Shown: in pieces, positions 33,432-57,781 of the stretch | How the letters are laid out: each line of letters begins with the position of its first letter | Numbering within the stretch: position 1 is the stretch's first letter | NCBI GenBank assembly: GCA_020722705.1 | Contig: DYKI01000005.1 | Coordinates: forward strand, 7,254 to 71,253 | DNA: 64,000 nucleotides | Origin: Chthonomonas calidirosea | GTDB lineage: Bacteria > Armatimonadota > Chthonomonadetes > Chthonomonadales > CAJBBX01 | Reading direction: 5' to 3' | The notes under the pieces: model-generated | What the model saw: the letters and a program-made list of their open reading frames with translations, nothing else | What the model was told of the DNA's origin: nothing | The model's database searches: none | Translations under genes and position numbers: made by a program

Positions 33432-34817
33432 ATGTCAGATGCGCTCTCAGTTGCGCCTGTCATACGGTCGCTGGATGAGTTCGTCTACGGTCGTGCGCCG
33501 AAGCCGATCACTTGCGGTCACGGTGTCGTCATCGGCGACGGCACGGTCATCCCCGAAGTGAACTTCACGCTTCCCGCCACTGACGTCAACCCCGACACCT
33601 GGGATTTCGTTCGAGCCCAGTACACCGAGATGATAGAAGGCGTCTGCAAACGCGCTGTCGAGCTCAATGTGCCGGGCCTGCTGGTCGAGTTCGAGACCCT
33701 TCCGCCGATGACGGTCAATCCTGAGTGGGGCGCGGAGATCACGGCCATCCTCGCCGAGACAATGGCCAGGTACCACGAACGCCATGGCCTGCGGTCGGCC
33801 CTCAGGCTGACGCCGAACGACACACGTGACCATGTGCGTCCCCCCGTCATGCGAAGCGGGATGTACTGGGAAGGCATGGTTCGGCTGTTCAGGATCGCCG
33901 GTTCATCCGGCGCCCACCTGCTGGCCATCGAGAGCACGGGCGGCAAGGAAATCCACGATGAAGGCTTGATGAACGCCGACCTTGAGACCATGGTCTTCGG
34001 CATTGGCGTGCTGGCTCCGCGGGATATGCGTTTCCTCTGGACCGAGATTGTTGCCGCCTGTCGCGACACGAACGTCCTCCCATCGGGTGACACCGCCTGC
34101 GGCTTTGCCAACACGGCGATGGTGCTCGCCGAGCAGCGCATGATCCCGCGGGTGCTTGCGGCGGTAGCTCGTGTTGCGGCTGTGCCCAGGTCGCTCGTCG
34201 CCTACGAAGTCGGCGCCGTCGGTCCCAGCAAGGACTGCGCCTACGAAGGCCCGTACATGAAGGCCATCATGGGCGTGCCGATCTCCATGGAGGGCCGCTC
34301 CGCGGCGTGCGCCCATTTGAGTCCCGTCGGCAACATCGCCCAGGCCGTCTGCGACTGCTGGTCCAACGAATCCGTTCAGAACGTGCGCCTGCTGAGCGCG
34401 AATGCACCGACGGTCAGCCTCGAGCAGCTCGCCTATGACTGCCGCTTGATGAATGTTGCCGCGAGCACGTCAAACGGGGCATCCCAGATGCGTGACTGGC
34501 TCACAGAGAGCGATGCGGGCCTCGATCCCCAGGCATTTGTCCTGCGGCCCGATGTGGCTCTTCGGCTTTCGGCGACGATCGCGGCTGAACCGACCCCTTA
34601 CCTGCGCACGAGGAAAGCCGTCCAAGCAACGCTGCAGGAGCTTGCCGACGCTGCAGCGAAGCATGAGGTCAGGATCGCGGACAACGAGGTGCGCTGGATG
34701 GATCGGTTCCGGCGAGTTGCCGACGGATTGCCTGAAAACGAAGAGGAGTTTGTGGCGAACATGCGAACGCGGCTGACCGATGCGCCGTACCTTCCGCAGG
34801 AGTATGGCCTCGCCTGA
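33432..34817 (+). CDS. mtaB: Methanol:corrinoid methyltransferase-like protein (MtaB family)
   Basis: The 461-aa protein matches the MtaB family over its length. It has glutamate in IESTGGKEIHDE, cysteine in SGDTACGFANT and cysteine in GPSKDCAYEGP at the places of the three zinc ligands of the Methanosarcina enzyme. MtaB activates a methyl donor (methanol in the type enzyme) on zinc and methylates its corrinoid partner. Family members in bacteria may use other donors, so the substrate is open. Its stop shares a base with the next start (TGATG). Confidence 0.9.
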   Translation: MSDALSVAPVIRSLDEFVYGRAPKPITCGHGVVIGDGTVIPEVNFTLPATDVNPDTWDFVRAQYTEMIEGVCKRAVELNVPGLLVEFETLPPMTVNPEWGAEITAILAETMARYHERHGLRSALRLTPNDTRDHVRPPVMRSGMYWEGMVRLFRIAGSSGAHLLAIESTGGKEIHDEGLMNADLETMVFGIGVLAPRDMRFLWTEIVAACRDTNVLPSGDTACGFANTAMVLAEQRMIPRVLAAVARVAAVPRSLVAYEVGAVGPSKDCAYEGPYMKAIMGVPISMEGRSAACAHLSPVGNIAQAVCDCWSNESVQNVRLLSANAPTVSLEQLAYDCRLMNVAASTSNGASQMRDWLTESDAGLDPQAFVLRPDVALRLSATIAAEPTPYLRTRKAVQATLQELADAAAKHEVRIADNEVRWMDRFRRVADGLPENEEEFVANMRTRLTDAPYLPQEYGLA

Positions 34818-35905
34818 TGGGCAACGAGCGCGCCGCCACGCCGGCGGGGAAGCCTGACTGGCCGGAGGCCCGCCGGGCATGGGAGGAATGGTGGCGCCGG
34901 AAAGGGCTTGCGCTCTATGTCACCGCTCCCCGTGAAACGCCGCTCTTCGCATCCAATCCGCCCGAACCCACCGATCTTCGGACCCGATGGCTCGACCCCG
35001 ACCATCGGGTCCGATCGTTCCTGCACACGGCGGCGCGCACTTTCTATGGCGGTGTCGCCTTCCCGATGTTCGATTCCCATATCGGCCCTGGCAGCCTCGG
35101 CCTCTTCCTCGGATGCGGTGGAGAGCTGGCCGAGACCACCGTCTGGTATGATCCCGTCATCACCGATCCCGAACATTGTCCGGTTCTGGTATTCCGGCCT
35201 GAAGGCTACTGGTGGGAGCGGCACCTCGCGATCGTCGAGGAGGCGGTAGGACGCTCCGAGGGGCGTTACCTCGTATCCATGCCGGACCTGATCGAGAATC
35301 TCGACACGCTGGCGCAGCTTCGGGGGGCCCAGCAAGCGCTGTACGATATGGCAGATCATCCTGATTGGGTCGAGCGCGCCATCTGGGAAATCAACGACGC
35401 GTTCAAAGAGAGCTATGAGCTCCTGTGGGAGCGCGTTCGCGATGCGTGGGGAGGCAGTTGCTGGTCGGCGTTCCAGATTTGGGGCTCCGGCAAAGTGGCC
35501 AAAGTGCAGTGCGATATCTGCTGCGTAATCAGTCCGGCCGACTTTCGGCGCTTTGTCCAGCCGGCGTTGACCGACCAATGTGCGTGGCTTGACCGGTCCA
35601 TGTTCCACCTGGACGGAACTCAGGCCCTGCCGCAACTGGACAATCTGCTTTCGATCGAACCTCTGGACGCCATTGAATGGACCCCGCAAGCGGGACTGCC
35701 GGGCGGCGGATCACCCGAGTGGTACGACCTCTACCGACGCATCCTCGCTGCCGGCAAGAGCGTGCAGGCCATCGGTGTCGCGTTTGACGAGGTGCTTCCC
35801 TTGCTCGATGCCGCGGGACCCGATGGAATGCTGATCATGACGCAGGCTCCCTCCGAGCAGGCCGCTCGGGAGCTGCTCGACAAAGTTGGATGGAATGGGA
35901 ACTGA
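34817..35905 (+). CDS. UroD-superfamily protein 1 (HxD variant)
   Basis: The 362-aa protein has the uroporphyrinogen-decarboxylase/MtaA fold pattern (LGLFLGCG, VSMPDLIENLD, FHLDGTQALPQLD, IEWTPQAG). Where MtaA-type corrinoid:thiol methyltransferases have H-x-C, it has H-L-D (near 35605-35620), and no downstream cysteine ligand is evident. It is unlikely to be a heme-pathway UroD because the substrate-binding arginine-rich N-terminus is not seen. It is coupled at both ends by TGATG junctions. It probably acts on the methyl donor or acceptor side of the corrinoid pathway, or binds a non-thiol substrate. Confidence 0.8.
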   Translation: MGNERAATPAGKPDWPEARRAWEEWWRRKGLALYVTAPRETPLFASNPPEPTDLRTRWLDPDHRVRSFLHTAARTFYGGVAFPMFDSHIGPGSLGLFLGCGGELAETTVWYDPVITDPEHCPVLVFRPEGYWWERHLAIVEEAVGRSEGRYLVSMPDLIENLDTLAQLRGAQQALYDMADHPDWVERAIWEINDAFKESYELLWERVRDAWGGSCWSAFQIWGSGKVAKVQCDICCVISPADFRRFVQPALTDQCAWLDRSMFHLDGTQALPQLDNLLSIEPLDAIEWTPQAGLPGGGSPEWYDLYRRILAAGKSVQAIGVAFDEVLPLLDAAGPDGMLIMTQAPSEQAARELLDKVGWNGN

Positions 35906-37089
35906 TGGGCGATCTCACGGACACATTTGATGTCGCGGCGCACAATGCCGAAGTGCAGCAGGTCTGGGAAGCCTACTACGCTCGACGGCCCCTCCGTGTA
36001 CCCATGGTGCTGGGGATCAACCCGCGGTACCTGCTGCTCGAGCCGGAGGCCAACACGCTCGGATACGACTTCGAGACCTATTCGGAGAACCCCGAGGCGA
36101 TGTTCCAGGCTCAGCTTGAGTTCCAGCGGTGGATACGGCACAACCTGATGCAGGATGCCGAGATGGGTCTGCCGAAGGCCTGGAGCGTAACCGTGGACTT
36201 CCAGAACTACTACGAGGCGGCCTGGTTCGGCTGTCCCATCGCATACCGTGACGGTCAGGTGCCGGACGCGATACCTGTCTATAGTGAGCGGCCCGAAGCC
36301 GTGTTGGATCGGGGCATGCCGGAACCGTTCTCGGGGATCATGGCGCGGGCGCTGGAATATCACGAGATCATGACCGCACTCGCCGCAAACCGGGACTATC
36401 TGGGCCGACCCATTGAGGTGGCCCCGCCGGCAACCGGAATCGGTACGGATGGTCCCATGACCGTGGCCTGCAATCTCTTCGGAGCGACGTTCGTATGCGA
36501 GACGCTGGCCTCCGATCCGGAGCGCATCGGTCGGCTCCTCGACTTCATTACCGAGGCAACAGTGGCGCGCGTGGCCGCCTGGAAGCGTCGGGCCAACATT
36601 GCCTTCCCGCACGACGGGTACTGGATAGCGGACGACAGCATCGCCCTCCTGTCGGTCAGGAGCTATCGCAGCAGCATCATGCCGCTGCATCGCTGCCTGT
36701 TCGATCATTTCGGCACCGGCGAGGGACGCGGTATCCACCTGTGCGGCGATGCCACCCGCCACTTCCGCACACTCCGAGATGAACTGAACGTGACGACGTT
36801 CGACACCGGCTATCCCGTGGATTTCGGTTGGCTCAGAAGGGAGCTCGGCCCGGACGTGCAGTTCTACGGCGGTCCGCCGGCTCCATTCCTTGCAACGGCG
36901 AAGCCCGACGAAGTCCGCGTTGCCGTGCGCGACGTGCTGCAGTCGGGCGTGATGACCGGCGGCCGCTTTGTCCTGCGCGAGGGCAACAACCTTTCGCCCG
37001 GTACGCCACGCGAGAATGTGGCAGCCATGTACGAGGCCGTTCATGCGTTCGGGCGTTACGATGGAGGCGATTTACCATGCACGAACTGA
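35905..37089 (+). CDS. UroD-superfamily protein 2 (HxC retained, distal Cys lost)
   Basis: The 394-aa protein is a second divergent UroD/MtaA-like barrel. It has IHLCGDATRHF (H-x-C, about 36733-36741). In the C-terminal family motif, normally GCxLxxxTPxEN, it reads EGNNLSPGTPRENV, so the last cysteine is replaced. The ATG at 35905 overlaps the previous stop (TGATG). A start at 35890 is possible but would lie inside the upstream gene. It overlaps the homocysteine methyltransferase gene by 13 nt. Confidence 0.8.
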   Translation: MGDLTDTFDVAAHNAEVQQVWEAYYARRPLRVPMVLGINPRYLLLEPEANTLGYDFETYSENPEAMFQAQLEFQRWIRHNLMQDAEMGLPKAWSVTVDFQNYYEAAWFGCPIAYRDGQVPDAIPVYSERPEAVLDRGMPEPFSGIMARALEYHEIMTALAANRDYLGRPIEVAPPATGIGTDGPMTVACNLFGATFVCETLASDPERIGRLLDFITEATVARVAAWKRRANIAFPHDGYWIADDSIALLSVRSYRSSIMPLHRCLFDHFGTGEGRGIHLCGDATRHFRTLRDELNVTTFDTGYPVDFGWLRRELGPDVQFYGGPPAPFLATAKPDEVRVAVRDVLQSGVMTGGRFVLREGNNLSPGTPRENVAAMYEAVHAFGRYDGGDLPCTN

Positions 37090-37946
37090 TCAGGAGACTC
37101 CTTGAGAAGGCGCCAGTGATCACAGATGGCGCGTGGGGCACTCAACTCCAGCAGCGTGGGCTGCCGGTCGGAGCCGCTCCGGACCCGTGGAACCTCGAAC
37201 GCCCTGAGGTTGTCGCGGAGGTCGCGCGCGGATACGTGGACGCTGGAAGCCGCATCATACTGACCAACACGTTCGGCGCCAGCCGCATCCGTCTCGAACG
37301 CCATGGTATGGCGGAGGCCGCGGCCGACATCAACAGGGCAGGTGCGCGCATATCGGTCGAGGCGGCGGCGGGCAAGGCACACGTGTTCGCATCGGTGGGA
37401 CCGACCGGGAAGATGCTGTCCATGGGTGAGGTGGACGAACGGGAGCTCCGCGCCGCCTATACGGAGCAGGCCCTGGCGCTGGCGGAGGGGGGAGTTGACG
37501 GCTTCGTTGTGGAGACCATGAGCGACCTCGCTGAGGCCGTCATTGCTGTGGCCGCTGCTGCGGCAACCGGGCTGCCGGTTGTTGCCTGCATGACCTATGG
37601 TGCGGGCAAGGCAGGCGATCGGACGATGATGGGTGTCACGCCGGAGCAGGCCGCAAAGGAGCTGATCGAAGCGGGCTCCGCCATCGTCGGGGCCAACTGC
37701 GGCCAGGGGCCTGAAGGCATGGTCACCGTCGTCGAGCGGCTGCACGCCGCGGTCGGTCAGCCCGTGTGGGCAAAGCCGAACGCCGGGCTGCCCCGCATAG
37801 CGGACGGTGTGGCAGTCTACGATCAGACGCCGGAAGTGTTTGCCGACGGTGCGCGCGCCCTGGTGCAGGCAGGGGCGGGCTTCATCGGCGGCTGCTGCGG
37901 CACCCACCCCGGGTTCATCCGTGCTCTGATCGCTCTTGGCGGATGA
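37077..37946 (+). CDS. Stand-alone homocysteine S-methyltransferase domain
   Basis: The 289-aa protein corresponds to the N-terminal homocysteine-binding barrel of MetH (also BHMT/MmuM). It has DGAWGTQLQQRG at the N-terminus, and the zinc-binding cysteines are in GANCGQGPEG and GGCCGTHP. The folate, B12 and activation domains of MetH are absent, so methyl groups must come from a separate donor. The free-standing corrinoid protein upstream is the obvious candidate. GGAGG lies 9 nt before the ATG. Upstream in-frame extension to 36828 lies inside another gene and is rejected. Confidence 0.9.
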   Translation: MHELIRRLLEKAPVITDGAWGTQLQQRGLPVGAAPDPWNLERPEVVAEVARGYVDAGSRIILTNTFGASRIRLERHGMAEAAADINRAGARISVEAAAGKAHVFASVGPTGKMLSMGEVDERELRAAYTEQALALAEGGVDGFVVETMSDLAEAVIAVAAAAATGLPVVACMTYGAGKAGDRTMMGVTPEQAAKELIEAGSAIVGANCGQGPEGMVTVVERLHAAVGQPVWAKPNAGLPRIADGVAVYDQTPEVFADGARALVQAGAGFIGGCCGTHPGFIRALIALGG

Positions 37947-37983
37947 GCGCGAGCCACGGACGGGATTGGAGGTCCTCCGCTTC

Positions 37984-38733
37984 TTGCGTTACAAGCTGAT
38001 CGCGTGTGAGGTGATGTACAGGGAGTTCTGCCACGCAGTCGCATCGGCTCCCCATACGGTTGACGTTGAATCTGTGGCCAAGGGGCTTCATGACCTGGGC
38101 GACCGGCCCATGCGTGAGCAGCTCCAGGGGATCGTGGACCGCGTGCCTGCCGGTCAGTATGATGCGGTGCTGCTCGGCTATGCCCGATGCAACAACGGAC
38201 TGGTCGGGTTGGTGGCGCGCGACGCGCCCCTTGTGATCCCGCGCGCGCATGATTGCATCACCCTCTTCCTGGGCAGCCGACAGCGCTACGAGCAGTACTT
38301 CTATGACAACCCGGGCGTCTATTTCACGACATCGGGGTGGATCGAGCGCGGGGCCGTTGCCGGTGAGCTTGCCACCCAGACGGTTCAACGGCGGACCGGC
38401 ATGGACAGCTCCTATGATGAGCTCTTGGCCAAGTACGGCGAAGAGAACGCTCAGTACCTGTGGGAAACGCTGTGCAACACTCTGCGCAACTACTCGCAGT
38501 ACACCTACATCGAGATGGGCATCGAGCCGGACGACCGTTTCGAGCGTCAGACGCGCGAAGATGCCGAACGTCGCGGGTGGCGGTTTGCGAAGCTGCCAGG
38601 CGACATGCGACTGATTGATGGCCTGGTTCGCGGCGACTGGGACGAAAGCGAATACCTGGTGGTGCCGCCGGGCTGCCGCATCGCAGCTCGTGAAGACAAC
38701 AATATCCTCGCCTACGAAAGATGCAGCGAATGA
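37984..38733 (+). CDS. DUF1638 protein
   Basis: The 249-aa protein matches DUF1638 (PF07796), recognisable by YKLIACEVMYREF at the N-terminus, LLGYARCNNGLVGL and PRAHDCITLFLGS. The conserved cysteines suggest metal or Fe-S binding. The family often occurs beside corrinoid methyltransferases and UroD-like genes, but its activity is undefined. The TTG at 37984 is chosen because it gives the family N-terminus and GGAGG lies 11 nt upstream. TTG 37936 is an alternative that overlaps the preceding gene. Confidence 0.82.
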   Translation: MRYKLIACEVMYREFCHAVASAPHTVDVESVAKGLHDLGDRPMREQLQGIVDRVPAGQYDAVLLGYARCNNGLVGLVARDAPLVIPRAHDCITLFLGSRQRYEQYFYDNPGVYFTTSGWIERGAVAGELATQTVQRRTGMDSSYDELLAKYGEENAQYLWETLCNTLRNYSQYTYIEMGIEPDDRFERQTREDAERRGWRFAKLPGDMRLIDGLVRGDWDESEYLVVPPGCRIAAREDNNILAYERCSE

Positions 38734-39473
38734 AGAAAGAATACCGGGCGGCCGACTGGGACCGCTACAGGATGGACATGCGCGATCCGCATCGCGAGCT
38801 GGAGCCTCAGGAGGATGAGATTGCAGTCGTGCATGCGGCCCTTGACATGCTCGTCAGTGAGGGCATCCTGCCCCACAGCACGTACGACCATCAGAAGTTC
38901 CTGGCCCATCGTGCGGCTGTGGCGGAGAAGTTCGAGATCCCCTGGACGGCCATCACGCCGCGCCAGCAACGGCTGATCTACGCCATCAACGCCATCGCTC
39001 AGCCTCGCCATATGCTTGCGGCGGGGGTGTTCTGCGGCAACACATTCATCTCGAATGCCGGTGCCGCCGTCGGACCGGGGGCGGTCTACACGGCGCAATC
39101 GCTGGTTGGCGTCGAGATCAAGCCCGAAGAGGCCGAGCGTGCCGAGCGGAATGTGCGCCGGGTGGATCCGACCGGCGTTGCCCGAGTGGTCGCTGCAGAT
39201 GCGGTGGACGTGGCCGGCGATCTGGACCACGACCTTCATTTGCTCTACCTTGATGCCGATGGCGACGCGGCTCGGGGCAAGGGCATCTACTTCGACATCC
39301 TGCAGGCATGTTATCGTCGGCTCGTGCCCGGCGGCATCGTCCTCGCGCACAACAGCGTCAACTGCGCCGAACGGCTTGCGAGCTATCTGGCATGGGTCCG
39401 TGACTCGGCGAACATGCGCGTGAGCGTCAATGTCATCCTGGACGGCGAAGGATTGGAGGTGTCGGCCAAATGA
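38730..39473 (+). CDS. Class I SAM-dependent methyltransferase
   Basis: The 247-aa protein has a Rossmann methyltransferase core. Motif I is AAGVFCGNTF, the acidic end of strand 2 is in VGVEIKPEEAERAERN, an aspartate lies in LLYLDADGD, and PGGIVLAHN is at the motif-III position. It resembles caffeoyl-CoA/catechol O-methyltransferase-type folds, with a 75-residue N-terminal extension. The ATG overlaps the DUF1638 stop (ATGA), and its own stop overlaps the next gene. The substrate is unknown. Confidence 0.78.
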   Translation: MKKEYRAADWDRYRMDMRDPHRELEPQEDEIAVVHAALDMLVSEGILPHSTYDHQKFLAHRAAVAEKFEIPWTAITPRQQRLIYAINAIAQPRHMLAAGVFCGNTFISNAGAAVGPGAVYTAQSLVGVEIKPEEAERAERNVRRVDPTGVARVVAADAVDVAGDLDHDLHLLYLDADGDAARGKGIYFDILQACYRRLVPGGIVLAHNSVNCAERLASYLAWVRDSANMRVSVNVILDGEGLEVSAK

Positions 39474-40531
39474 CGTCGCATGACAGATTCGCCCGCATGT
39501 TCGAGCATCGGGAGGCCGATCGTATCCCGATCATAGACGGGCCGTGGCAGGCGACCATCGAGCGTTGGCAAAACGAAGGAATGCCCAAGGACGCCGACTA
39601 CGTGGAGTTCTTCGGGCTCGACCGCGTTGCCGGCATCTCGGTGGATATCAGCCCAAGGTATCCCGTGAGAACCCTGGAGGAGACGGACGAATACATCGTT
39701 CACACGTCCTCCTACGGGGTCACGATGCGCAACTGGAAGCATGCAGGAGGCGTGCCCGAGTTCCTGGACTTCACCATCAAGGATCCCGAGACGTGGGCCG
39801 ACGCCAAAGCGAGGATGCAGCCTGCTGACGATCGGATACCGTGGGATCACCTGAAGACCAACTATCCCAGGTGGCGCGATGAGGGCGCATGGATCCAGGG
39901 GCACCTGTGGTTCGGGTTCGACATAACCCATTCCTGGACGATCGGCACCGAACGAGTCCTAACGGCCATCGTCGAACAGCCGGAATGGATGGCCGATGTG
40001 TTCGGCCACTTCCTTGACGTCAACCTGGCGCTGCTCGAACGGGTCTGGGACGCCGGCTACACGTTCGACAGCGTCACCTGGCCCGACGATATGGGATACA
40101 AGCACAGCCAGTTCTTTTCCGTGAGGACCTACCGGCAGTTGCTGAAGCCGCTGCACAAACGCGTTGTGGACTGGGCGCATAGCCGGGGCGTCAAGGTGGC
40201 TCTCCACTCCTGCGGGGACGTCAATCCGTTCATTCCCGAGTTTGTGGACGTGGGCATTGACTGCCTGAACCCGCTTGAGGTGAAGGCAGGCATGGACCCC
40301 GTCGCGATCAAGCGGCGCTACGGCGACCGGCTCGTGCTTCACGGAGGCATCAACGCTGTCCTCTGGGACGATCTCGACGCGATCAGCGCCGAGATGCGCC
40401 GGACCATCCCTGAGCTGAAGCGCAATGGCGGCTACATCTTTTCGTCGGACCATTCGGTCCCATCGTCCGTGAGCCTCGAGGGCTTTCGGTACATCGTGAA
40501 CCTCGCCAGGGAACTGGGAAGCTACGAGTAG
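39470..40531 (+). CDS. UroD-superfamily protein 3 (HxC, CmuA/MtaA-like)
   Basis: The 353-aa protein is the most MtaA/CmuA-like of the three paralogues. It has [16 protein letters not shown] at the start, WPDDMGYK, and ALHSCGDV with the H-x-C ligands (about 40202-40213), then ECN-like and GGIN segments. The second cysteine of the thiol-activating site is replaced: the C-terminal motif reads [11 protein letters not shown]. It may transfer a methyl group from, or to, the corrinoid protein. The start overlaps the previous stop as ATGA. Confidence 0.82.
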
Positions 40532-41780: not shown

Positions 41781-42854
<1,074 letters not shown>

Positions 42855-42935
42855 TCGTCGGCCAGTGTCATGATCCGTTCCGTCCCCGCTGCACGCTCCG
42901 ATGGTGCGAGGGTCGGGATCGCAGGTGCACTGACT

Positions 42936-42963
42936 GGGGGCACGGTCTTCCGTGCCCCCTTCT
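42936..42963 (+). terminator. Terminator between gap and pgk
   Basis: A perfect 10-bp stem (42936-42945 with 42950-42959) with a TCTT loop is followed by TTCT. It lies only 35 nt before the pgk ATG. Confidence 0.7.
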
Positions 42964-42997
42964 GCCCATGGATGAGCATACCGCAGGGAGTATCCGC

Positions 42998-44197
42998 ATG
43001 CTAAGAAAGAAGACCGTTGAAGACCTTGACGTAGCCGGCCGCCGAGTGCTGGTCCGAGTGGACTTCAATGTCCCTCAGCACGAAGACGGCAGGGTTAAGG
43101 ACGACCGGCGCATCCGCGCGGCGCTGCGCACGATTCAGTACCTCCGCGATCAGGGAGCGCGGGTCATATTGGTGTCGCACCTGGGACGCCCCAAGGGCAA
43201 ACCCGAAGATCAGGTGAAGTTCACTCTGCGTCCCGTGGCCGATAGGCTGAGCGAGCTGTTGGGCGTTATGGTGCCTCTCGTTCCGGACTGCATCGGCCCG
43301 CAGGCAGATGCGGCCGTTGCCCAGATGAAGGATGGCGATGTCGTTCTGCTGGAGAATGTCCGGTTCCATCCTGAGGAAACCAAGAACGATCCGGACTTTG
43401 CTTCGAGACTGGCGGCGCTTGCCGAGGTCTATGTCAACGATGCCTTCGGCACCGCCCATCGAGCCAATGCTTCCACTGAAGGCGTGGCGCACCACCTGCA
43501 ATCCGGTGCCGGGTTCCTGATGCAGAAGGAGATCGAGTACCTTGGCTCGGTGCTGACTGCCCCCAAACGGCCCTTCGTTGCGGTTCTGGGCGGAGCCAAG
43601 GTGGCAGGCAAGATCGGCGTCGTGAACAATCTGCTGACGAAGGTGGACCGCCTGATCATCGGCGGCGGCATGGCGTACACGTTCCTGAAGGCCCAGGGCC
43701 TGGAGATCGGCAAGTCGCTTCTGGACGGCGAGTCGCTCGACTATTGCCGCGAGGTTCTTAGGGTGTCGGACTCGAAGATACTCCTCCCGGTTGATGTGGT
43801 GGTGGCCGACGGAAACCCGTTTGAGAAGGGCGCAGCCGGTTTGGCTGCGAAGATCGTGCCGGTTGATTCGATTCCGCCCGACTGGGAAGGCCTTGACATC
43901 GGACCGAAGACACGTGAGCTCTTTGCATCGGCCGTTGCCGGTGCGGGTACGGTGGTCTGGAATGGTCCGATGGGGGTGTTCGAGTTCCCGGAGTTTGCCG
44001 TCGGCACGCGCGCCATGGCGGAAGCGCTCGCCCAGTCCGGTGCGGTAACGATCGTCGGCGGGGGCGACTCGGCGGCTGCCGTTGATGAGCTCGGGTATGC
44101 CGACAAGATCACCCATATCTCGACAGGTGGGGGAGCGTCACTCGAGTTTCTTGAAGGCAAGCAGCTTCCAGGAGTGGTCGCTCTCTCTGACAAGTAG
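42998..44197 (+). CDS. pgk: Phosphoglycerate kinase
   Basis: The 399-aa enzyme transfers phosphate from 1,3-bisphosphoglycerate to ADP. RVDFNVPQ and SHLGRPKG mark the N-terminal substrate domain, and WNGPMGVFE and GGGDSAAAV mark the nucleotide domain. The ATG at 42998 is preferred over 42968 because AGGGAG lies 7 nt before it. The leader is short and follows a terminator, so expression probably depends on read-through or an unrecognised promoter. Confidence 0.97.
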   Translation: MLRKKTVEDLDVAGRRVLVRVDFNVPQHEDGRVKDDRRIRAALRTIQYLRDQGARVILVSHLGRPKGKPEDQVKFTLRPVADRLSELLGVMVPLVPDCIGPQADAAVAQMKDGDVVLLENVRFHPEETKNDPDFASRLAALAEVYVNDAFGTAHRANASTEGVAHHLQSGAGFLMQKEIEYLGSVLTAPKRPFVAVLGGAKVAGKIGVVNNLLTKVDRLIIGGGMAYTFLKAQGLEIGKSLLDGESLDYCREVLRVSDSKILLPVDVVVADGNPFEKGAAGLAAKIVPVDSIPPDWEGLDIGPKTRELFASAVAGAGTVVWNGPMGVFEFPEFAVGTRAMAEALAQSGAVTIVGGGDSAAAVDELGYADKITHISTGGGASLEFLEGKQLPGVVALSDK

Positions 44198-44235
44198 GTG
44201 GGCATGGGCGGGTTGCCGACTCATCGGAGGATACC

Positions 44236-45075
44236 GTGAAACTTGGTGTGCTGCTTGCGGCGCGGTCGGTGGACGAGGCCGACAAACGCCTCGCCCAGGC
44301 GCGCGAGGCCGGTTTCTCGCTGTGCCAGTTGGACCTGAAGAAGGGCGGCTGCACTCGTAGTGACCTGTTGGCGATCGCGGATCGGATGCTTGAGCACGGC
44401 GTTCGACCCGTCGCCGTAGGATGTCATGTGAACCCCTTGAGGCCCGACGATCCAGGCCCGATTGGCGTCTCACGTGATGACCTGGTTCACCTGCTGCAGC
44501 AGTTGGATATCATCGGCGCACGGCGGATTGTGTTCTCCAGTGGAACCTATGCGGAGTCGCCGTTTGATGCGCACCCGGACAACCGATCCGATGAGGCGCT
44601 CGATGCCCTCGTGGATTTCGTTCGCGGTGTTGTGGCCGCGACAAAGGCCCGGCACTATCACCTGGTGATCGAGCCGTGGTTCGGCCATGTTCTGTACAAC
44701 GAGGATCGCATCATAGCGTTCCATGAGCGCTTGGAGCCCGCCGTCTCCGAGCACGTTCGCTATGTCATAGATGCATGCAGCCTGATTGGACCGGATCGGT
44801 ATCCGAAACGTGACACCGAGACGCGTCGAGCGCTTCGCGCAGTCGGTCGGGCGGCGGGGGTTGTCCATCTGCGCGACTGCATCATGCCGCCGGACGGTGA
44901 AGCCGATCTGACGGCACCGGGGCAGGGCAAGCTCGATTACGGGGCGTACGTCGCGTCGCTCATGGAGTATGTTCCCGACGATACGCCTGCCGTGATCCGA
45001 AATCTGACGCCCGAGGAGTTCGGGCAAGTGCGAGACTACCTGCTGCGCCTGGCGGATGGCTGGCAGTTGGTGTGA
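44236..45075 (+). CDS. Xylose isomerase-like TIM-barrel protein in the glycolytic operon
   Basis: The 279-aa protein is a sugar phosphate isomerase/epimerase-type TIM barrel. Candidate metal ligands lie in VIEPWFGH, VIDACSLIG and VVHLRDCIMP. The GTG start is preceded by CGGAGGA. It is wedged between pgk and tpiA with short gaps, so it is made with the triose-phosphate enzymes. I do not know the substrate. Sequence differs clearly from the isomerase-like gene at 2542-3378. Confidence 0.8.
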   Translation: MKLGVLLAARSVDEADKRLAQAREAGFSLCQLDLKKGGCTRSDLLAIADRMLEHGVRPVAVGCHVNPLRPDDPGPIGVSRDDLVHLLQQLDIIGARRIVFSSGTYAESPFDAHPDNRSDEALDALVDFVRGVVAATKARHYHLVIEPWFGHVLYNEDRIIAFHERLEPAVSEHVRYVIDACSLIGPDRYPKRDTETRRALRAVGRAAGVVHLRDCIMPPDGEADLTAPGQGKLDYGAYVASLMEYVPDDTPAVIRNLTPEEFGQVRDYLLRLADGWQLV

Positions 45076-45095
45076 AAAAGGAGTTAGAAACAACA

Positions 45096-45905
45096 ATGCG
45101 ACGACAGATCATCGCCGGCAACTGGAAGATGCACATGCTGACGGACGAGGGCCGAGAGCTCGCTGAGGCGCTGGTCGGGCTTGGGGCAGAGGTACCGAAT
45201 GTGGATGTGGCGCTCTGCCCTCCCTATACGGCTCTCACAGCGGTCGGCGCCGTCCTGGCGGGTTCAAAGGTCCGACTCGGAGCGCAGGATGTGTTCTGGA
45301 AGGAGAAGGGAGCGTACACGGGGCAGGTTGCTCCATCAATGCTGGTAGACATCGGCGTGAGCGTCGTGATCGTGGGGCATTCGGAGTCGCGCGGACGCTT
45401 CGGTGTTCCGGAACCTGACATGGATGACGTCGTGCTGGCCCATTTCGGTGATAGCGACCGCACCGTCAATCTGAAGCTCAAGGCCGCGCGTCGTGCCGGT
45501 CTGACTGTGATCTGCTGCGTCGGCGAAACGCTGGCAGAGCGAGAGGCCGGGGATACCGATCGGGTCGTCACCAGGCAAGTCGAGGGGGCGCTCGCGGGAC
45601 TGGACGCCTCGACACTCGATGAAGTGGTCCTGGCCTATGAGCCGGTCTGGGCTATCGGAACCGGCAAGACGTGCCAGACCGTTGAGGCGGATCGGGTGTG
45701 CGGGGTGATCAGACAGGCCGTGGGCGTGCTCTTCGGATCCGATTGCGCTGAGGCGATGCGCATCCAGTACGGAGGCAGCGTGAAGCCGGCCAATGCCGCC
45801 GAGCTCCTGGCCTGCCCCAACATAGATGGTGCCCTGGTCGGCGGCGCAAGCCTGGTTGCTGCCGACTTTGCGGCGATTGTCAAGGCCGGCCCTACCGCTG
45901 CGTGA
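45096..45905 (+). CDS. tpiA: Triosephosphate isomerase with an internal insertion
   Basis: The 269-aa enzyme interconverts dihydroxyacetone phosphate and glyceraldehyde-3-phosphate. AGNWKMH holds the substrate-binding Asn and Lys, VGHSESR the catalytic histidine, YEPVWAIGTG the catalytic glutamate and loop 6, and QYGGSVK the phosphate loop. After GHSES there is an insertion of about 15 residues (RFGVPEPDMDDVVLAHFG) compared with the usual enzyme, which explains the extra length. AAGGAG lies 11 nt before the ATG. Confidence 0.96.
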   Translation: MRRQIIAGNWKMHMLTDEGRELAEALVGLGAEVPNVDVALCPPYTALTAVGAVLAGSKVRLGAQDVFWKEKGAYTGQVAPSMLVDIGVSVVIVGHSESRGRFGVPEPDMDDVVLAHFGDSDRTVNLKLKAARRAGLTVICCVGETLAEREAGDTDRVVTRQVEGALAGLDASTLDEVVLAYEPVWAIGTGKTCQTVEADRVCGVIRQAVGVLFGSDCAEAMRIQYGGSVKPANAAELLACPNIDGALVGGASLVAADFAAIVKAGPTAA

Positions 45906-51974: not shown

Positions 51975-52391
51975 ATGGCTAACGGTTCTGATGGCCCTTT
52001 GAGCGACGTAATAGGCATAGACCCGGGCCGCGACAAATGCGGCCTTGCCCATCTGCGCGCCGACGGCTCGGTAGCCGCGCGAGCCATCCTGGCCCCGGAC
52101 GCTGTGGTCGGCTGGGTACGGCGCGTTCAGGTCGAGAACCGCGCCCGCGTTCTCTTGGGCAGCGGCACCGGACATCGGGCACTGGGGGCGCGCCTGACCG
52201 AAGCCGGTATCGCGTGGCAGTCCGTGGACGAGACAGGCACGTCGGCCGAGGCTCGAAGGCGTTATCTCGCCGATCATCCCGCACGGGGATTGGGGCGACT
52301 TGTCCCTGCGGGTCTGCGGGTGCCCGACGAGCCGTATGACGACTATGTGGCGCTGATATTGGCGGAACGTGCTCTTGCTGACGATTCTTGA
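51975..52391 (+). CDS. YqgF/RNase H-fold resolvase-like protein
   Basis: The 138-aa protein has IGIDPGRDKCGLAHL (first acidic residue of the RNase H-like fold, near residue 16), VDETGTSAEARRRY, and a C-terminal PYDDYVALILAER. This is the order of acidic residues found in YqgF/RuvX-type nucleases. YqgF processes 16S rRNA ends in E. coli. This divergent branch may act on RNA or on DNA junctions. It follows the DUF3084 gene by 21 nt. Its stop overlaps the -35 box of the next promoter. Confidence 0.78.
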   Translation: MANGSDGPLSDVIGIDPGRDKCGLAHLRADGSVAARAILAPDAVVGWVRRVQVENRARVLLGSGTGHRALGARLTEAGIAWQSVDETGTSAEARRRYLADHPARGLGRLVPAGLRVPDEPYDDYVALILAERALADDS

Positions 52392-52423: not shown

Positions 52424-52707
52424 CAGCAGGCCTGCGGCGTTGAGTGCGTAGCCTAGAGTTAGGCGTATGACTCGGCGGGGCAGGTTTGGAGCAGGGGGAT
52501 GCGAGGTCCGAGCGTTCGGGCTCTCCGGCCGCCAAGCGAGTGACCCGGTAGCCGTTCAATGTGGTGGGGGCGATGAAGAAGGAAACAGGGACTACTTCCT
52601 CACCTCCTCCGAAGGACAGCGACCGAGTGCGCAAGCCGTGCCGTCGGACCGTTCGGATGCCAGGATATCGCGGAGCCTCTGCAGCCACGTACTTAGGAGG
52701 AGGCAAA
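52424..52707 (+). other. Long 5' leader of the SLH-porin mRNA
   Basis: About 285 nt lie between the predicted transcription start and the ATG at 52708. The porin frame stays open back to 52561, but no ribosome site supports an earlier start. The leader ends with a very strong AGGAGGAGG. Long leaders are common on abundant S-layer and porin mRNAs and often stabilise them. Confidence 0.45.
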
Positions 52708-54630
52708 ATGCGAAAGGTACTCACCTTTCTAGGCGCTTCCGTCTGTTTGGCGTGGGTGTTGCCCGTTATGGCGCAGGTTGCGCCGCCCGAGTTCAGTGAC
52801 GTTCCAACCGATCACTGGGCATACGATGCGGTCGAATCACTGCGCGCCAAGAACATCCTCGTCGGATACCCGGATGGATACTTCCGGGGGAAGCGCACGC
52901 TCAGCCGGTACGAGTTCGCAGTCGCGCTGAAGCGCGCCCTTGACAGCATCCAGTTGACAACCGGCCCGAAGGGCGATCCAGGCCCCCAGGGTCCCAAGGG
53001 CGACAAGGGCGAGAAGGGCGAAGCCGGTCCGCAGGGCCCATCGGGTGTTGCACCGGAAGAGCTCGCCACGCTCAAGAAGCTGGCTGACGAGTTCAAGGCA
53101 GAGCTTGCCAACCAGGGCGTCAACATTAACGCCCTGAACGCCAAGTTCGATAAGCTCGCTCAGGACGTTGCCGCCGTCAAGGCGGAGATCGCCAAGATGC
53201 CGAAGATCAGCGGCAACGTATTCGCCGGCATTCGTGCAGACCGCGCTCGCGTTCCGTATGCGGACGCGGACGGCCGACCGTCCGACAGCGACCTGAAGAA
53301 CGAAGCGACGGTTGTCCATGCTCTCGAACTGGGTGTCACCGCAAATGCGGGCGACACTGTCATCAAGGGCTCCTTGGTCGCGGACAACTACAAGAACTAC
53401 CTGAACGGGTCGTTCAGCCAAGTCAGTTCCTTGAACACCAGTCCGAGTGGGGACGTGTGGATCAACCGACTGACCCTGGAATCTCCATTCGAGGGCGTCG
53501 GTCGCGAAGGCGCGTTGACCATCGGTCGCTTGCCCTTCCAGGTCAGCCCGCTTACTCTCTGGAAACCGGACGTGGATACGTACTTCGACAACCCCATAGT
53601 TGACGATGGCATGTATCGCATGGACGGCTTTACTCTTGGCACTAAGCTCGGCAGCGTGGGAGTTCAGGCGTTTGCCGGCTCGTTCAAGAGTGTGACCGGT
53701 TCGGTATCGGGGGGTGGCGTTTACAACTCGCCGCTCGCCGGCCTGGGCGGCCCCAGCGTCTTTCGTTCGGCGAAGCCCGTAGGTATCGCAGTGGATAGCC
53801 CCCTGGTCTTGGATCAGGTCGGTGGGGTTGCCGTGAAGCTGCCGCTCAAGATCGGACCAGAAGATGGCAGCTACCTGCGCGCCGTTAGTCTGCTGGGCAC
53901 GGGTAACGCAGGGTATGGGGCGTCCAATCCTGCCACCAATGTGGCAGTTCTCGGTGCCGACACGAAGCTCAACCTGAGTGAGGCCGTTTCCTTCGAGGGC
54001 GCTTGGTCCAAGACCGTCACGGGCGGCGGAAGCGGACAGGGCCGAGACATCGGCAACGTGGTGCACTCGTACAACAACGCCTTCTTGGGCAAGGTGGGCT
54101 ACACCAGCGGCAATCTCGGTCTGACTGCAGGATACAAGTACATTGATCCGATGTTCTACGCTCCCGGATACTGGGGCCGCGTGGGCAACTGGATCAATCC
54201 GACGAACATTCAAGGGCCGATGGTCACGCTGAACTACAAGGTCTCGCCAACGTTCGCTATGAGCGCCGGCGGTGACTACCTGACGTCCGCTCGCAACTGG
54301 CGCTCCGCCGGTACCCTCGGCGAGGACGACGAAATCTATCGCGTTCAAGTCGGGCTCCGGTGGGCGATCTCCGACGCATTTGAGACCGCCGTTGATTGGG
54401 AAGGCGTCTACTGGAAGCTGGCCACTGGCATTAGCACGAGCCCAAGCGTTCATCCGGTCGAGCATTACATCACTCTCGGCACCGGATACGAACTGAATGA
54501 CACCACCAAGATCAAGCTGGGATACCAGATTGGTCAGTGGAACGGCAAGGGCTTCCTTACCGGTGGTGCGGGCTCCGGCTCCGGCTACAACTACAACGCC
54601 TTTACGACCCAGGTCTCGGTCAAGTTCTAG
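52708..54630 (+). CDS. SLH-domain outer-membrane porin with collagen-like spacer
   Basis: The 640-aa protein has a signal peptide (residues 1-22, ending VMAQ). One SLH domain follows (about 26-80: FSDVPTDHWAYDAVESL, GYPDGYFRGKRTLSRYEFA), then nine Gly-X-Y triplets (86-112, 52963-53043), a short coiled coil (about 115-165) and a beta-barrel-like region ending in VSVKF. In Deinococcus/Thermus, cyanobacterial and Thermotoga relatives, the SLH domain binds pyruvylated wall polymer and ties the outer membrane to the wall. The strong promoter, the strong SD and a perfect terminator suggest an abundant protein. Confidence 0.9.
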   Translation: MRKVLTFLGASVCLAWVLPVMAQVAPPEFSDVPTDHWAYDAVESLRAKNILVGYPDGYFRGKRTLSRYEFAVALKRALDSIQLTTGPKGDPGPQGPKGDKGEKGEAGPQGPSGVAPEELATLKKLADEFKAELANQGVNINALNAKFDKLAQDVAAVKAEIAKMPKISGNVFAGIRADRARVPYADADGRPSDSDLKNEATVVHALELGVTANAGDTVIKGSLVADNYKNYLNGSFSQVSSLNTSPSGDVWINRLTLESPFEGVGREGALTIGRLPFQVSPLTLWKPDVDTYFDNPIVDDGMYRMDGFTLGTKLGSVGVQAFAGSFKSVTGSVSGGGVYNSPLAGLGGPSVFRSAKPVGIAVDSPLVLDQVGGVAVKLPLKIGPEDGSYLRAVSLLGTGNAGYGASNPATNVAVLGADTKLNLSEAVSFEGAWSKTVTGGGSGQGRDIGNVVHSYNNAFLGKVGYTSGNLGLTAGYKYIDPMFYAPGYWGRVGNWINPTNIQGPMVTLNYKVSPTFAMSAGGDYLTSARNWRSAGTLGEDDEIYRVQVGLRWAISDAFETAVDWEGVYWKLATGISTSPSVHPVEHYITLGTGYELNDTTKIKLGYQIGQWNGKGFLTGGAGSGSGYNYNAFTTQVSVKF

Positions 54631-54663: not shown

Positions 54664-54702
54664 GGCTCCTGCCGCGGTCCTTTGCGGCAGGAGCCTTTTG
54701 TT
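54664..54702 (+). terminator. Intrinsic terminator of the porin gene
   Basis: A perfect 12-bp stem (54664-54675 with 54684-54695) with an 8-nt loop is followed by TTTTGTT. It is the clearest terminator in the window. Confidence 0.9.
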
Positions 54703-54748
54703 CAACAAAGAACCTCGCCATTATGGCGGGGGGAAGGAGTTTCAGACA

Positions 54749-55180
54749 ATGCGAAGCAGATCCATGCGCATCGTCGCAATCGCTTGTGGTTGTCTTGTCC
54801 TGGGTGGGGTGGCCGGAGCGCAGCTCGGAAGCCTTGTAAAGGGCGGAGCCATTGCCCTGGCCGTCAGCAAGTTCGGGAAGGACATTGACAAGGCGATAAA
54901 CACGCTGACCGGGCAGAAGAACGTCGGCCATACTCAGGCCACCAAGGTTGTGCCTATACTGTCGCTTGGCGATGGCGGGCACATTGGCGCGGTTCAGGTG
55001 ACCGGACCTGAGCGCCTCGTCAAGAGGGTAGAGGCAGTGGCGCAGCTTGAGGGGCGGTTCAGGGCCATCGGTGGTGTCCGCCTTCGAGCGCTGGTTCCGA
55101 TCAGCACCAAGACGCCGCAGAAGGGCCTGAATCGTGTCGAAGGTGTTGGCGTCAGCGCCATCATTGACTTCAAGCTCTAA
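54749..55180 (+). CDS. Small secreted protein of unknown function
   Basis: The 143-aa protein has a signal peptide (about residues 1-27, ending GVAGAQ). A compact body follows with a hydrophobic LGSLVKGGAIALAVSKFG segment, then a predicted alpha/beta region (VVPILSLGDGGHIGAVQVTG). AAGGAG lies about 11 nt before the ATG. It follows the porin terminator, so it may be transcribed only by read-through or from an unseen promoter. I do not recognise a family. Confidence 0.75.
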   Translation: MRSRSMRIVAIACGCLVLGGVAGAQLGSLVKGGAIALAVSKFGKDIDKAINTLTGQKNVGHTQATKVVPILSLGDGGHIGAVQVTGPERLVKRVEAVAQLEGRFRAIGGVRLRALVPISTKTPQKGLNRVEGVGVSAIIDFKL

Positions 55181-55292: not shown

Positions 55293-55339
55293 ATGCCATG
55301 TGTGCGTGGGTGTCGGTTGGCCAGATGAAGGAGCGCACC

Positions 55340-57781
55340 TTGGGTAACCGGAAGATGTTGCGGGCAGTTGCGGAGACTGCTGTGGTTGTGGCGGCCCTGG
55401 TGACGGTCGCGCCGGCTTCTCCGGCCGTCGGCCGAATGATGGAGACGGGACAGCGCGGACGAGCGCCCGGGGCGGAGGGCGATGCTGCAGTGCTCCACAC
55501 GGGATGGCGTATCCATCCTGCCGGCGAACACGTGCCAAGCGGCGATCTTCCGCTTGGCGGCGTTCTCAGCCCCGACGGCAGGCATGTCCTCATCGCGAAC
55601 TGCGGGTTCGGAGCTCACGCTATCCACATCCTCGACATGACGACGAAGGAGCGCGTGGCTCGATTGCCTGTGGCGCGCGCATGGCACGGTGGGGCGTGGA
55701 TGCCCGATGGCCAGGGTTTCTTCGTGTCGGGCGGCATCGCCAACCCGCTGAACGACATCTACCGGTACGAGATGCGCGACGGCTCCTGGGTGCGGGGACA
55801 GGGCCTGCGTCTTGAAGGGCCGAAGGTCTCAACGGCGTGTGTATCGTGGATCGCGCTGTCAGGCGACGGTCGGACGCTCTACGCGACGAATCTGGCCGAC
55901 AACCGCCTGCATGTTCTCGATACTGTGACCGGCGACACCCACGCACGCCTCGAAGTTGGGATGCGTCCGGTCGCCGGTGCGGTGTCGAGGGACGGCAAGC
56001 GGATGTTCATTGCCAACTGGGGCGGGTCGGAGGTGGTCTCGATTGGCCTGACCGACCCGCGCAGACCCGTCCTGAAGGCGCGCTGGAAGGTGGGCCCACA
56101 CCCGAATGCGGTGGCGCTTGTTGATGATGCCCGGCTCTTCGTCAGTTGCGGCAACGACGATACGGTGTACGCTCTGGACGCGGGGGATGGCAGGCAAGTT
56201 GAGCGCATTCGTACCTCGCTCAAGCCGCATGCGGCGCTTGGAAGCACTCCGAACGCGCTTGCTTATGCGGCCGGGCGTCTGTATGTGGCCAACGCCGACA
56301 ACAACAACGTGTGCGTTGTAAACGTATCGCGACCCGGCAGATCGCGCGTTCTCGGCTTCATACCGACGGGATGGTATCCGAGCGCTGTCGTCGCGTCACG
56401 CGACGGCCACCGGCTTCTGATCGGATCCGGGAAGGGCACGGGCACCCGCCCGAACCGGGCCCGTTTGCCCATCAACCCGATCGTGCCGGCCGGCTTCGAG
56501 TACATAGGCGCGCAGCTCAACGGATTGCTCTCATTCGTGGACGCCCCCGACAATGGTCGGCTTGCTCGATACACGCGCGAGGTGCTGGCCCTCACGCCTG
56601 ATGGCGCCAGAACGATGCGTGATGCGGCGTCAGGCCGCCGATCGCCCATTCCCACACGTGTTGGAGGGCGCAGCCCGATCCGGTACGTGTTGTATGTGAT
56701 CAAAGAGAACCGAACCTATGATCAGGTGTTCGGCGACATCGAACGGGGAAACGGCGATCCGTCGCTGTGCCTCTTCGGTCGTGAGGTGACGCCCAATCAG
56801 CATGCCCTTGCGGAGGAGTTCGTTCTGCTCGACAATCTCTACTGCACGGGCGAAGTCTCGGCTGATGGGCACCCGTGGAGCACGATGGCATATGCCACCG
56901 ACCATACGCAGCGCTCATGGGTGCTGCGGTATTCGGGGAAGGGCAGCCTGCCCGATGCAGCTTCAATGGGGGATTCGGCCTCCGGCTTCATCTGGGACGC
57001 CTGCAAAGCGAAGGGCATTTCGTATCGTTCGTACGGGGAGTACGCGGGTCATCCCAGCCTCGCCGGGCACCATAGCCTGGCCTATGTCGGCAAGGAGGGA
57101 CCGGGATCGGCGCCTCCGGGCCGGGACACCGATCGGGCGGACATCTTCATCCGCGAGTTCAAGGAGTTTGAGCGGACCGGTACGATGCCGCGCTTCATGG
57201 TGATGTCGCTGGGCGAGAACCACACGAACGGCACGAAGCCGGGCTCGTATACGCCCAAGGCGATGGTCGCGTCAAACGACCTGGCGCTGGGCCGGATCGT
57301 CGAAGCGGTCACCCACAGCAGTCTCTGGCCGCAGTTCGCAATCTTCGTGATCGAGGACGACGCTCAGAACGGACCCGATCACGTCGATTCCCACCGAACG
57401 ACCGGCCTTGTGATCAGTCCCTATGTGCGCCGGGGGTACGTTGACAGCACGATGTACTCGACCAGTTCGATGCTCCGGACGATGGAGCTGATTCTGGGCT
57501 TACCGCCCCTGACGCAACATGACGCATCGGCAACGCCAATGCACAGGTGCTTCACCCGCACCGCGGATGTTCGGCCGTACCGAGCTCTGCCCGCCCGAAT
57601 CAACCTGGAGGAGCGGAATGCGTCGAATGCGTATGGCGCGGTCCAATCGGCCCGGATGGACTGGAGCGAGTACGACCGCATCAACGAGGACGAACTGAAC
57701 CGCATTCTGTGGCACAGCATCAAAGGTCCGAACGTGCCGTATCCTGCGCCCGTCCGAACAGCTCTGGTTGGGGTCAAATAG
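55340..57781 (+). CDS. Secreted YncE-like beta-propeller fused to a phosphoesterase domain
   Basis: The 813-aa protein has a signal peptide (about residues 1-29, ending APASPA). A seven-bladed-type propeller covers about residues 55-360 (LSPDGRHVLIAN; GDGRTLYATNLADN; VSRDGKRMFIANWG). A PF04185-type phosphoesterase domain follows from about residue 450, with the metal/nucleophile region VIKENRTYDQVFGD, then SLGENHTNG and VIEDDAQNGPDHVDSHR. This domain cleaves phospholipids or phosphate esters outside the cell. The TTG at 55340 is chosen because AAGGAG lies 6 nt upstream and it gives a clean signal peptide. ATG 55298 and 55325 are alternatives. Confidence 0.87.
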   Translation: MGNRKMLRAVAETAVVVAALVTVAPASPAVGRMMETGQRGRAPGAEGDAAVLHTGWRIHPAGEHVPSGDLPLGGVLSPDGRHVLIANCGFGAHAIHILDMTTKERVARLPVARAWHGGAWMPDGQGFFVSGGIANPLNDIYRYEMRDGSWVRGQGLRLEGPKVSTACVSWIALSGDGRTLYATNLADNRLHVLDTVTGDTHARLEVGMRPVAGAVSRDGKRMFIANWGGSEVVSIGLTDPRRPVLKARWKVGPHPNAVALVDDARLFVSCGNDDTVYALDAGDGRQVERIRTSLKPHAALGSTPNALAYAAGRLYVANADNNNVCVVNVSRPGRSRVLGFIPTGWYPSAVVASRDGHRLLIGSGKGTGTRPNRARLPINPIVPAGFEYIGAQLNGLLSFVDAPDNGRLARYTREVLALTPDGARTMRDAASGRRSPIPTRVGGRSPIRYVLYVIKENRTYDQVFGDIERGNGDPSLCLFGREVTPNQHALAEEFVLLDNLYCTGEVSADGHPWSTMAYATDHTQRSWVLRYSGKGSLPDAASMGDSASGFIWDACKAKGISYRSYGEYAGHPSLAGHHSLAYVGKEGPGSAPPGRDTDRADIFIREFKEFERTGTMPRFMVMSLGENHTNGTKPGSYTPKAMVASNDLALGRIVEAVTHSSLWPQFAIFVIEDDAQNGPDHVDSHRTTGLVISPYVRRGYVDSTMYSTSSMLRTMELILGLPPLTQHDASATPMHRCFTRTADVRPYRALPARINLEERNASNAYGAVQSARMDWSEYDRINEDELNRILWHSIKGPNVPYPAPVRTALVGVK

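Follow-up and report, generated by a model that had tools for sequence, protein, structure and literature searches.

A collagen-like spacer as a candidate triple-helical rod in an OmpM/SlpA-type outer-membrane tether of Chthonomonas calidirosea

The 64,000-nucleotide stretch of Chthonomonas calidirosea DNA analysed here, hereafter the window, encodes an OmpM/SlpA-type outer-membrane tether in which a run of Gly-X-Y triplets lies between the SLH domain and the coiled coil. The domain order, the insertion site, the conservation of and selection on the glycines, the variation by whole triplets and the recurrent exchange with non-collagen stalks were computed; a triple helix and a mechanical role for the spacer are what we infer. 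The best explanation, which we consider likely, is a trimeric tether of this type with a periplasmic triple-helical rod. As far as the literature searched goes, OmpM/SlpA-like tethers in Armatimonadetes are known and their collagen-like insert is new.

The porin gene (52708..54630, + strand, as are all features given below) encodes 640 residues plus a stop codon and has full-length orthologues at 68–34% identity. Among named relatives the closest, at 80% identity, belongs to a Chthonomonadales MAG of Armatimonadota (L004), and a genome of the same genus returned this match as well. A start at an upstream GTG (52561) was rejected in favour of ATG 52708, because the ribosome-binding sequence GGAGGAGG (52696..52703), 4 bases 5′ of that ATG, and the signal peptide that follows both fit the latter. 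The signal peptide spans residues 1–22 (52708..52773), with predicted cleavage after VMA and with A22 and Q23 nearly invariant. Long antisense open reading frames across the gene were set aside as mechanical products of high GC. An LPS-export group upstream comprises an LptA-like protein (47581), an LptB-like ABC protein (48406) and LptF/LptG (49168), followed by a DUF3084 protein (50394); these export genes lie just upstream of the porin, so the cell must have an outer membrane. The gene immediately before the porin (51975–52388) encodes a small protein without a Pfam match, RuvX/YqgF-like by eye, and just downstream is a short ORF whose product seems to carry a secretion signal (54698–55180). 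In an 827-residue protein (55298–57781), the N-terminal part resembles a beta-propeller and Pfam assigns a phosphoesterase domain (PF04185). Elsewhere in the window, a gene cluster that by eye resembles one for corrinoid-dependent methyl transfer (33432–40531; methyltransferase-like, several uroporphyrinogen-decarboxylase-like and homocysteine methyltransferase-like) is followed by the glycolytic genes GAPDH, PGK and TIM (41841–45905).

From the N to the C terminus, Pfam and AF2 place the signal peptide, an SLH domain at residues 29–71 (52792..52920), the triplets, a helical stalk at 116–163 and a beta-barrel at 166–639. The SLH domain is recognized by Pfam (PF00395, E 3.3e-9) and matches the SLH domains in the PDB entries for OmpM1 and SlpA; Pfam finds it in 39 of 39 aligned relatives, and its residues are conserved among orthologues. 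The coiled-coil stalk (residues about 116–164, 53053..53199) consists in AF2 of helices 116–128, 130–135 and 140–163, matches the OmpM1 coil by profile and bears the OmpM motif LADEFKxELxxxGVxV. The barrel (53203..54627) has about 20 strands and a C-terminal Phe. The AF2 single-chain model runs from the SLH helices through a spacer left unresolved (pLDDT about 38) to the stalk helices and the barrel strands, and Foldseek matches the model to trimeric porins, among them maltoporins and OmpM1 (8bym, E 1.4e-9; E values range from about 1e-11 to 1e-9), the likeness to the OmpM1 barrel being one of fold only, at 13% identity. A profile of the 39 relatives retrieves OmpM1 (8bys, E 2e-28; also 8bz2) and SlpA (7zgx, E 2.5e-26). 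In the OmpM1 alignment, the SLH domain covers profile positions 1–80 and the coil 112–148, with the spacer skipped; the two OmpM1 matches directly adjoin, so the alignment places the triplets as an insert exactly at the SLH–coil junction of an otherwise canonical OmpM/SlpA tether. The signal peptide and N-terminal SLH domain, the coiled-coil stalk and the C-terminal outer-membrane beta-barrel of such tethers were all found, and we class the porin as an outer-membrane tether of the OmpM/SlpA type. Its SLH domain is expected to bind the wall, to which the porin probably anchors the outer membrane. By analogy with OmpM1 and SlpA, which are homotrimers (PMC10628300, PMC9388160), it would be a trimer. 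The preliminary description had named it an SLH outer-membrane porin of a trimeric class: Pfam for the SLH domain and AF2 and Foldseek for the barrel bear out the first point and assign it to the OmpM/SlpA class, and the solved members of that class are indeed trimeric (PMC10628300, PMC9388160).

The collagen-like spacer, GPKGDPGPQGPKGDKGEKGEAGPQGPS, occupies residues 86–112 (52963..53043), exactly where nine consecutive triplets had been described, and the domain order confirms its position between SLH domain and coiled coil. The triplets (GPK, GDP, GPQ, GPK, GDK, GEK, GEA, GPQ, GPS) are uninterrupted, and a tenth in-register glycine, G113 (53044..53046), opens a junction into the coil that is conserved in the alignment as G-[VMI]-[TA]-P-E-E. 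The Pfam Collagen model (PF01391) scores 20.8 bits on residues 86–113. Its curated cut-off is 27.2, and a lower score is no surprise when the run has 9 triplets and the model is 20 triplets long. The model matches 19 of 39 relatives at E < 0.01; as the window protein does not reach the cut-off, we term the spacer collagen-like rather than a member of PF01391. The period-3 glycine run in the porin covers 10 positions including G113, the longest elsewhere in the protein being 3, whereas in 20,000 shuffles of the protein it never exceeds 8 and is usually 2–4, which excludes a chance origin. The insert is real and selected, and its conservation in relatives confirms this independently. Across seven same-length ortholog pairs, some of which share members so that the count uses related sequences, none of 69 glycine codons changes its residue while 15 change silently; X and Y residues differ at 30 of 138 positions in the same pairs. 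Most spacers (82 of 89) are uninterrupted, Pro takes 53% of X positions, aromatic residues are absent from 914 triplets, and acids favour X and bases Y. Lys or Arg in Y followed by Asp or Glu in the next X forms an ion pair that stabilizes triple helices. Such K/R-G-D/E pairs number 71 against 22 ± 3.5 in triplet shuffles, a three-fold enrichment that is inflated by kinship of the sequences but clear in direction; the window protein has four. The conservation and charge-pair pattern are thus of the triple-helix type, in keeping with the earlier suggestion that a collagen-like triple helix could form.

The sample comprised 138 distinct sequences of SLH proteins, taken from genomes of Armatimonadota. 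Every type-I porin recovered from the order Chthonomonadales (33 in all) carries the insert, with 7–12 triplets (script count, junction triplet included), and it occurs in 20 of 32 sampled families of the phylum, with 6 to 53 triplets; these phylum-wide proportions are not unbiased, because later loci were picked for a good match to a spacer-bearing query. Triplet numbers by family are 8–12 in f1, 6–7 in f21 and f33, 11–16 in f22, f42, f43 and f45 (12–16 in the last two), 16–20 in f12 and f23, and 44 and 53 in f11. Near-pure GPA repeats make up the spacer in some families. In the remaining 12 families this site is occupied by plain coil or by a stretch that is beta-layer-like or rich in Pro. 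On a quick tree built without the spacer, presence and absence of the insert interchange at least 7 times, so it has been gained or lost repeatedly. The comparison also covered 119 Selenomonas-phylum genomes and 4 genomes from one small phylum, where SLH matches end before the spacer; as far as these genomes go, the insert appears specific to Armatimonadota.

Several loci in this sample stand apart. The longest spacers, in L093 and L175 (G038 and G255, f11), have 44 and 53 triplets with one interruption each and predicted stalks of about 46–55 nm. The genome that contains the window encodes a second SLH protein, type II (L208, G000:C87:15700-17900), with counterparts in related genomes (L197–L207); in place of collagen and coil these type-II proteins have a Pro/Ala linker with a ~95-residue helix, and Pfam finds only the SLH domain. 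One type-II porin, L212 (G040:C143), has its own 7-triplet spacer inside an otherwise collagen-free clade, and its type-I co-resident has 8 triplets. A full-length type-I porin was not found in G003 (same family as the genome of the window, 94% complete), through either loss or an assembly gap. Genomes G051 and G208–G214 (f21) contain 10 to 35 SLH matches each, far above the rest of the phylum.

In the proposed mechanism, three porin chains would assemble with their N-terminal SLH domains bound to the wall and their C-terminal barrels in the outer membrane. In the interval between SLH domain and coil, the chains would wind into a short collagen triple helix of 9–10 triplets, about 8 nm long, continuing as a coiled coil of about 50–54 residues and about 8 nm. 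With textbook rises per residue of 0.286 nm (collagen) and 0.1485 nm (helix), the whole stalk comes to about 16 nm. The triple helix would be a stiff, length-adjustable stalk piece, exchangeable with coiled coil. Nine triplets without hydroxyproline are short for a self-stable triple helix, which counts against the proposal; stability could come from Pro in X, inter-chain K-G-D/E ion pairs and clamping by two trimeric neighbours.

The main competitor at the level of the fold is a flexible, unpaired linker rich in Gly, Pro and charge that gives reach and solubility, its chains forming no triple helix. The shortness of the run, its lack of hydroxyproline, the disorder of the spacer in the AF2 monomer and the different linkers, Pro/Ala-rich ones among them, that other families have in this place all fit such a linker, but it would have no need of strict Gly at every third residue, and the invariant glycine codons, the uninterrupted spacers, the absence of aromatics and the enrichment of inter-chain charge pairs make it unlikely. 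Recruitment of another envelope protein or wall polymer by the collagen segment, acting as a binding site rather than a spacer, is less probable still. Other bacterial collagen-like domains do bind ligands, that of Bucl8 binding fibrinogen (PMC7682875), and spacer charges differ between species; unlike a conserved site, however, the X and Y residues drift fast, whole triplets come and go, and Gly alone is kept. We give very little credence to an ordinary, functionless low-complexity repeat made by slippage: although tandem DNA can expand and some families have near-pure GPA spacers, retention by all 33 of the order's type-I porins despite diverged DNA, silent changes at Gly codons and the mixed X/Y residues of the window protein all argue against it.

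A triple-helical rod could in addition fix a length, and here the preliminary description went too far in proposing that the spacer sets periplasm width. Because the protein links the outer membrane to the wall, the most that it could set is the gap between them, not the whole periplasm. Whether triplet number strictly fixes this outer-membrane-to-wall distance, and is hence under length selection, is unproven and in our view doubtful. Within families the number is narrow (8–12 in f1; 12–16 in f43/f45), and stalks of one cell are alike in predicted reach: across 11 genomes of the order, collagen-type stalks of 16.6–18.3 nm reside with type-II stalks of 14.1–16.3 nm (helix only) or 17–19 nm (all residues). 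In the genome of the window the values are 16.6 nm and 14.1–17.4 nm, the type-II stalk (G000:C87) consisting of a 14.1-nm helix and a linker of about 20 residues, and in G040, with collagen in both porin types, 14.7 and 15.4 nm are predicted. Like lengths in one cell may, however, stem from common descent of the stalks, and collagen-type paralogues of one genome can be as many as 2 triplets apart. Comparison of spacer lengths among relatives also speaks against strict width-setting: among 30 proteins of the order, triplets run from 7 to 12 but most coils have the same 54 residues, giving predicted stalks of 14.3–18.3 nm, and across the phylum these span 13–55 nm. By rank, collagen and coil lengths correlate weakly and negatively, at −0.34 in the order (p 0.06) and −0.51 in a second group of families (p 0.002); length compensation was nevertheless rejected, because a coil with an SD of only 1.4 residues cannot offset 3–6 triplets. 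Homologues lacking any triplet repeat at this site had been named as evidence against the proposal, and such homologues occur in 12 of the 32 sampled families and as a paralogue in the same genome. In one sister pair (L098/L099, 56% barrel identity), one member has 16 triplets with short helices (26.4 nm) and the other a stalk of 190 residues that is all coil (28.2 nm); in f7 a sister pair (L094/L103) is unmatched, at 15.9 and 10.4 nm. What survives of the length role is thus a loose spacer, in that co-resident stalks match in reach, and not a strict ruler, as triplet number goes uncompensated. We conclude, from sequence comparison, that collagen and coil would be interchangeable stalk pieces under loose length control. 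More tentatively, and with no more confidence than in the strict ruler, the rod could be modular, the main outer-membrane-to-wall tether being tuned by gain and loss of triplets in 0.86-nm steps from about 13 to about 50 nm in much of Armatimonadota; the outer-membrane-to-wall distance would then be readable from the gene.

Bacterial collagen-like domains have been described on surfaces, in spores and in phage fibres. Full-text literature searches, subscription papers aside, returned no text that joins SLH domains or Armatimonadota with collagen-like sequence, and no periplasmic collagen segment within an outer-membrane-to-wall tether was found in the literature searched. If the spacer folds as proposed, these porins would form a natural series of tethers differing in triplet number, with all-coil sisters as controls, and what sets the outer-membrane-to-wall distance would become testable outside the Lpp system. 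They would also be a source of short triple helices that lack hydroxyproline and are clamped at either end by a trimeric domain. The f11 genomes with L093 and L175 would be the best species for the outer-membrane-to-wall gap.

Among known systems, OmpM of Negativicutes (Veillonella parvula OmpM1; PDB 8bym, 8bys, 8byt, 8bz2) has in common with the window porin a signal peptide, a single SLH domain, a coil, whose motif LADEFxxELxxLGVxV is shared, and a porin barrel. In OmpM1 the coil directly follows the SLH domain, whereas about 30 collagen-like residues intervene in the window porin, and its barrel has 16 strands (PMC10628300) as opposed to about 20 in the AF2 model. SlpA of Deinococcus radiodurans (PDB 7zgx), matched over SLH domain and coil, is likewise an SLH–stalk–barrel tether, with a 30-stranded barrel and a stalk made entirely of coiled coil with beta-layers. 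It is a trimer whose 28 nm coiled-coil stalk reaches the wall, in agreement with a measured gap of 30 ± 3 nm, and SlpA-like proteins have already been reported in Armatimonadetes (PMC9388160); neither that paper nor the one on OmpM1 (PMC10628300) mentions collagen. Burkholderia Bucl8, an outer-membrane efflux protein, also combines a trimeric outer-membrane channel with collagen, for which CD shows a triple helix, but its collagen part is extracellular and built of GAS repeats, and Bucl8 has no SLH domain and is not a wall tether (PMC7682875). Cyanobacterial SomB-type SLH porins (NCBIfam NF033921) match over the SLH and coil region (E 1.5e-17), the window porin scoring 63 bits, under the curated cut-off of 100 bits. 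The Braun lipoprotein Lpp of E. coli, an unrelated lipoprotein that is covalently attached to the wall and contains no collagen, is a trimeric helical outer-membrane-to-wall spacer whose length affects periplasm size.
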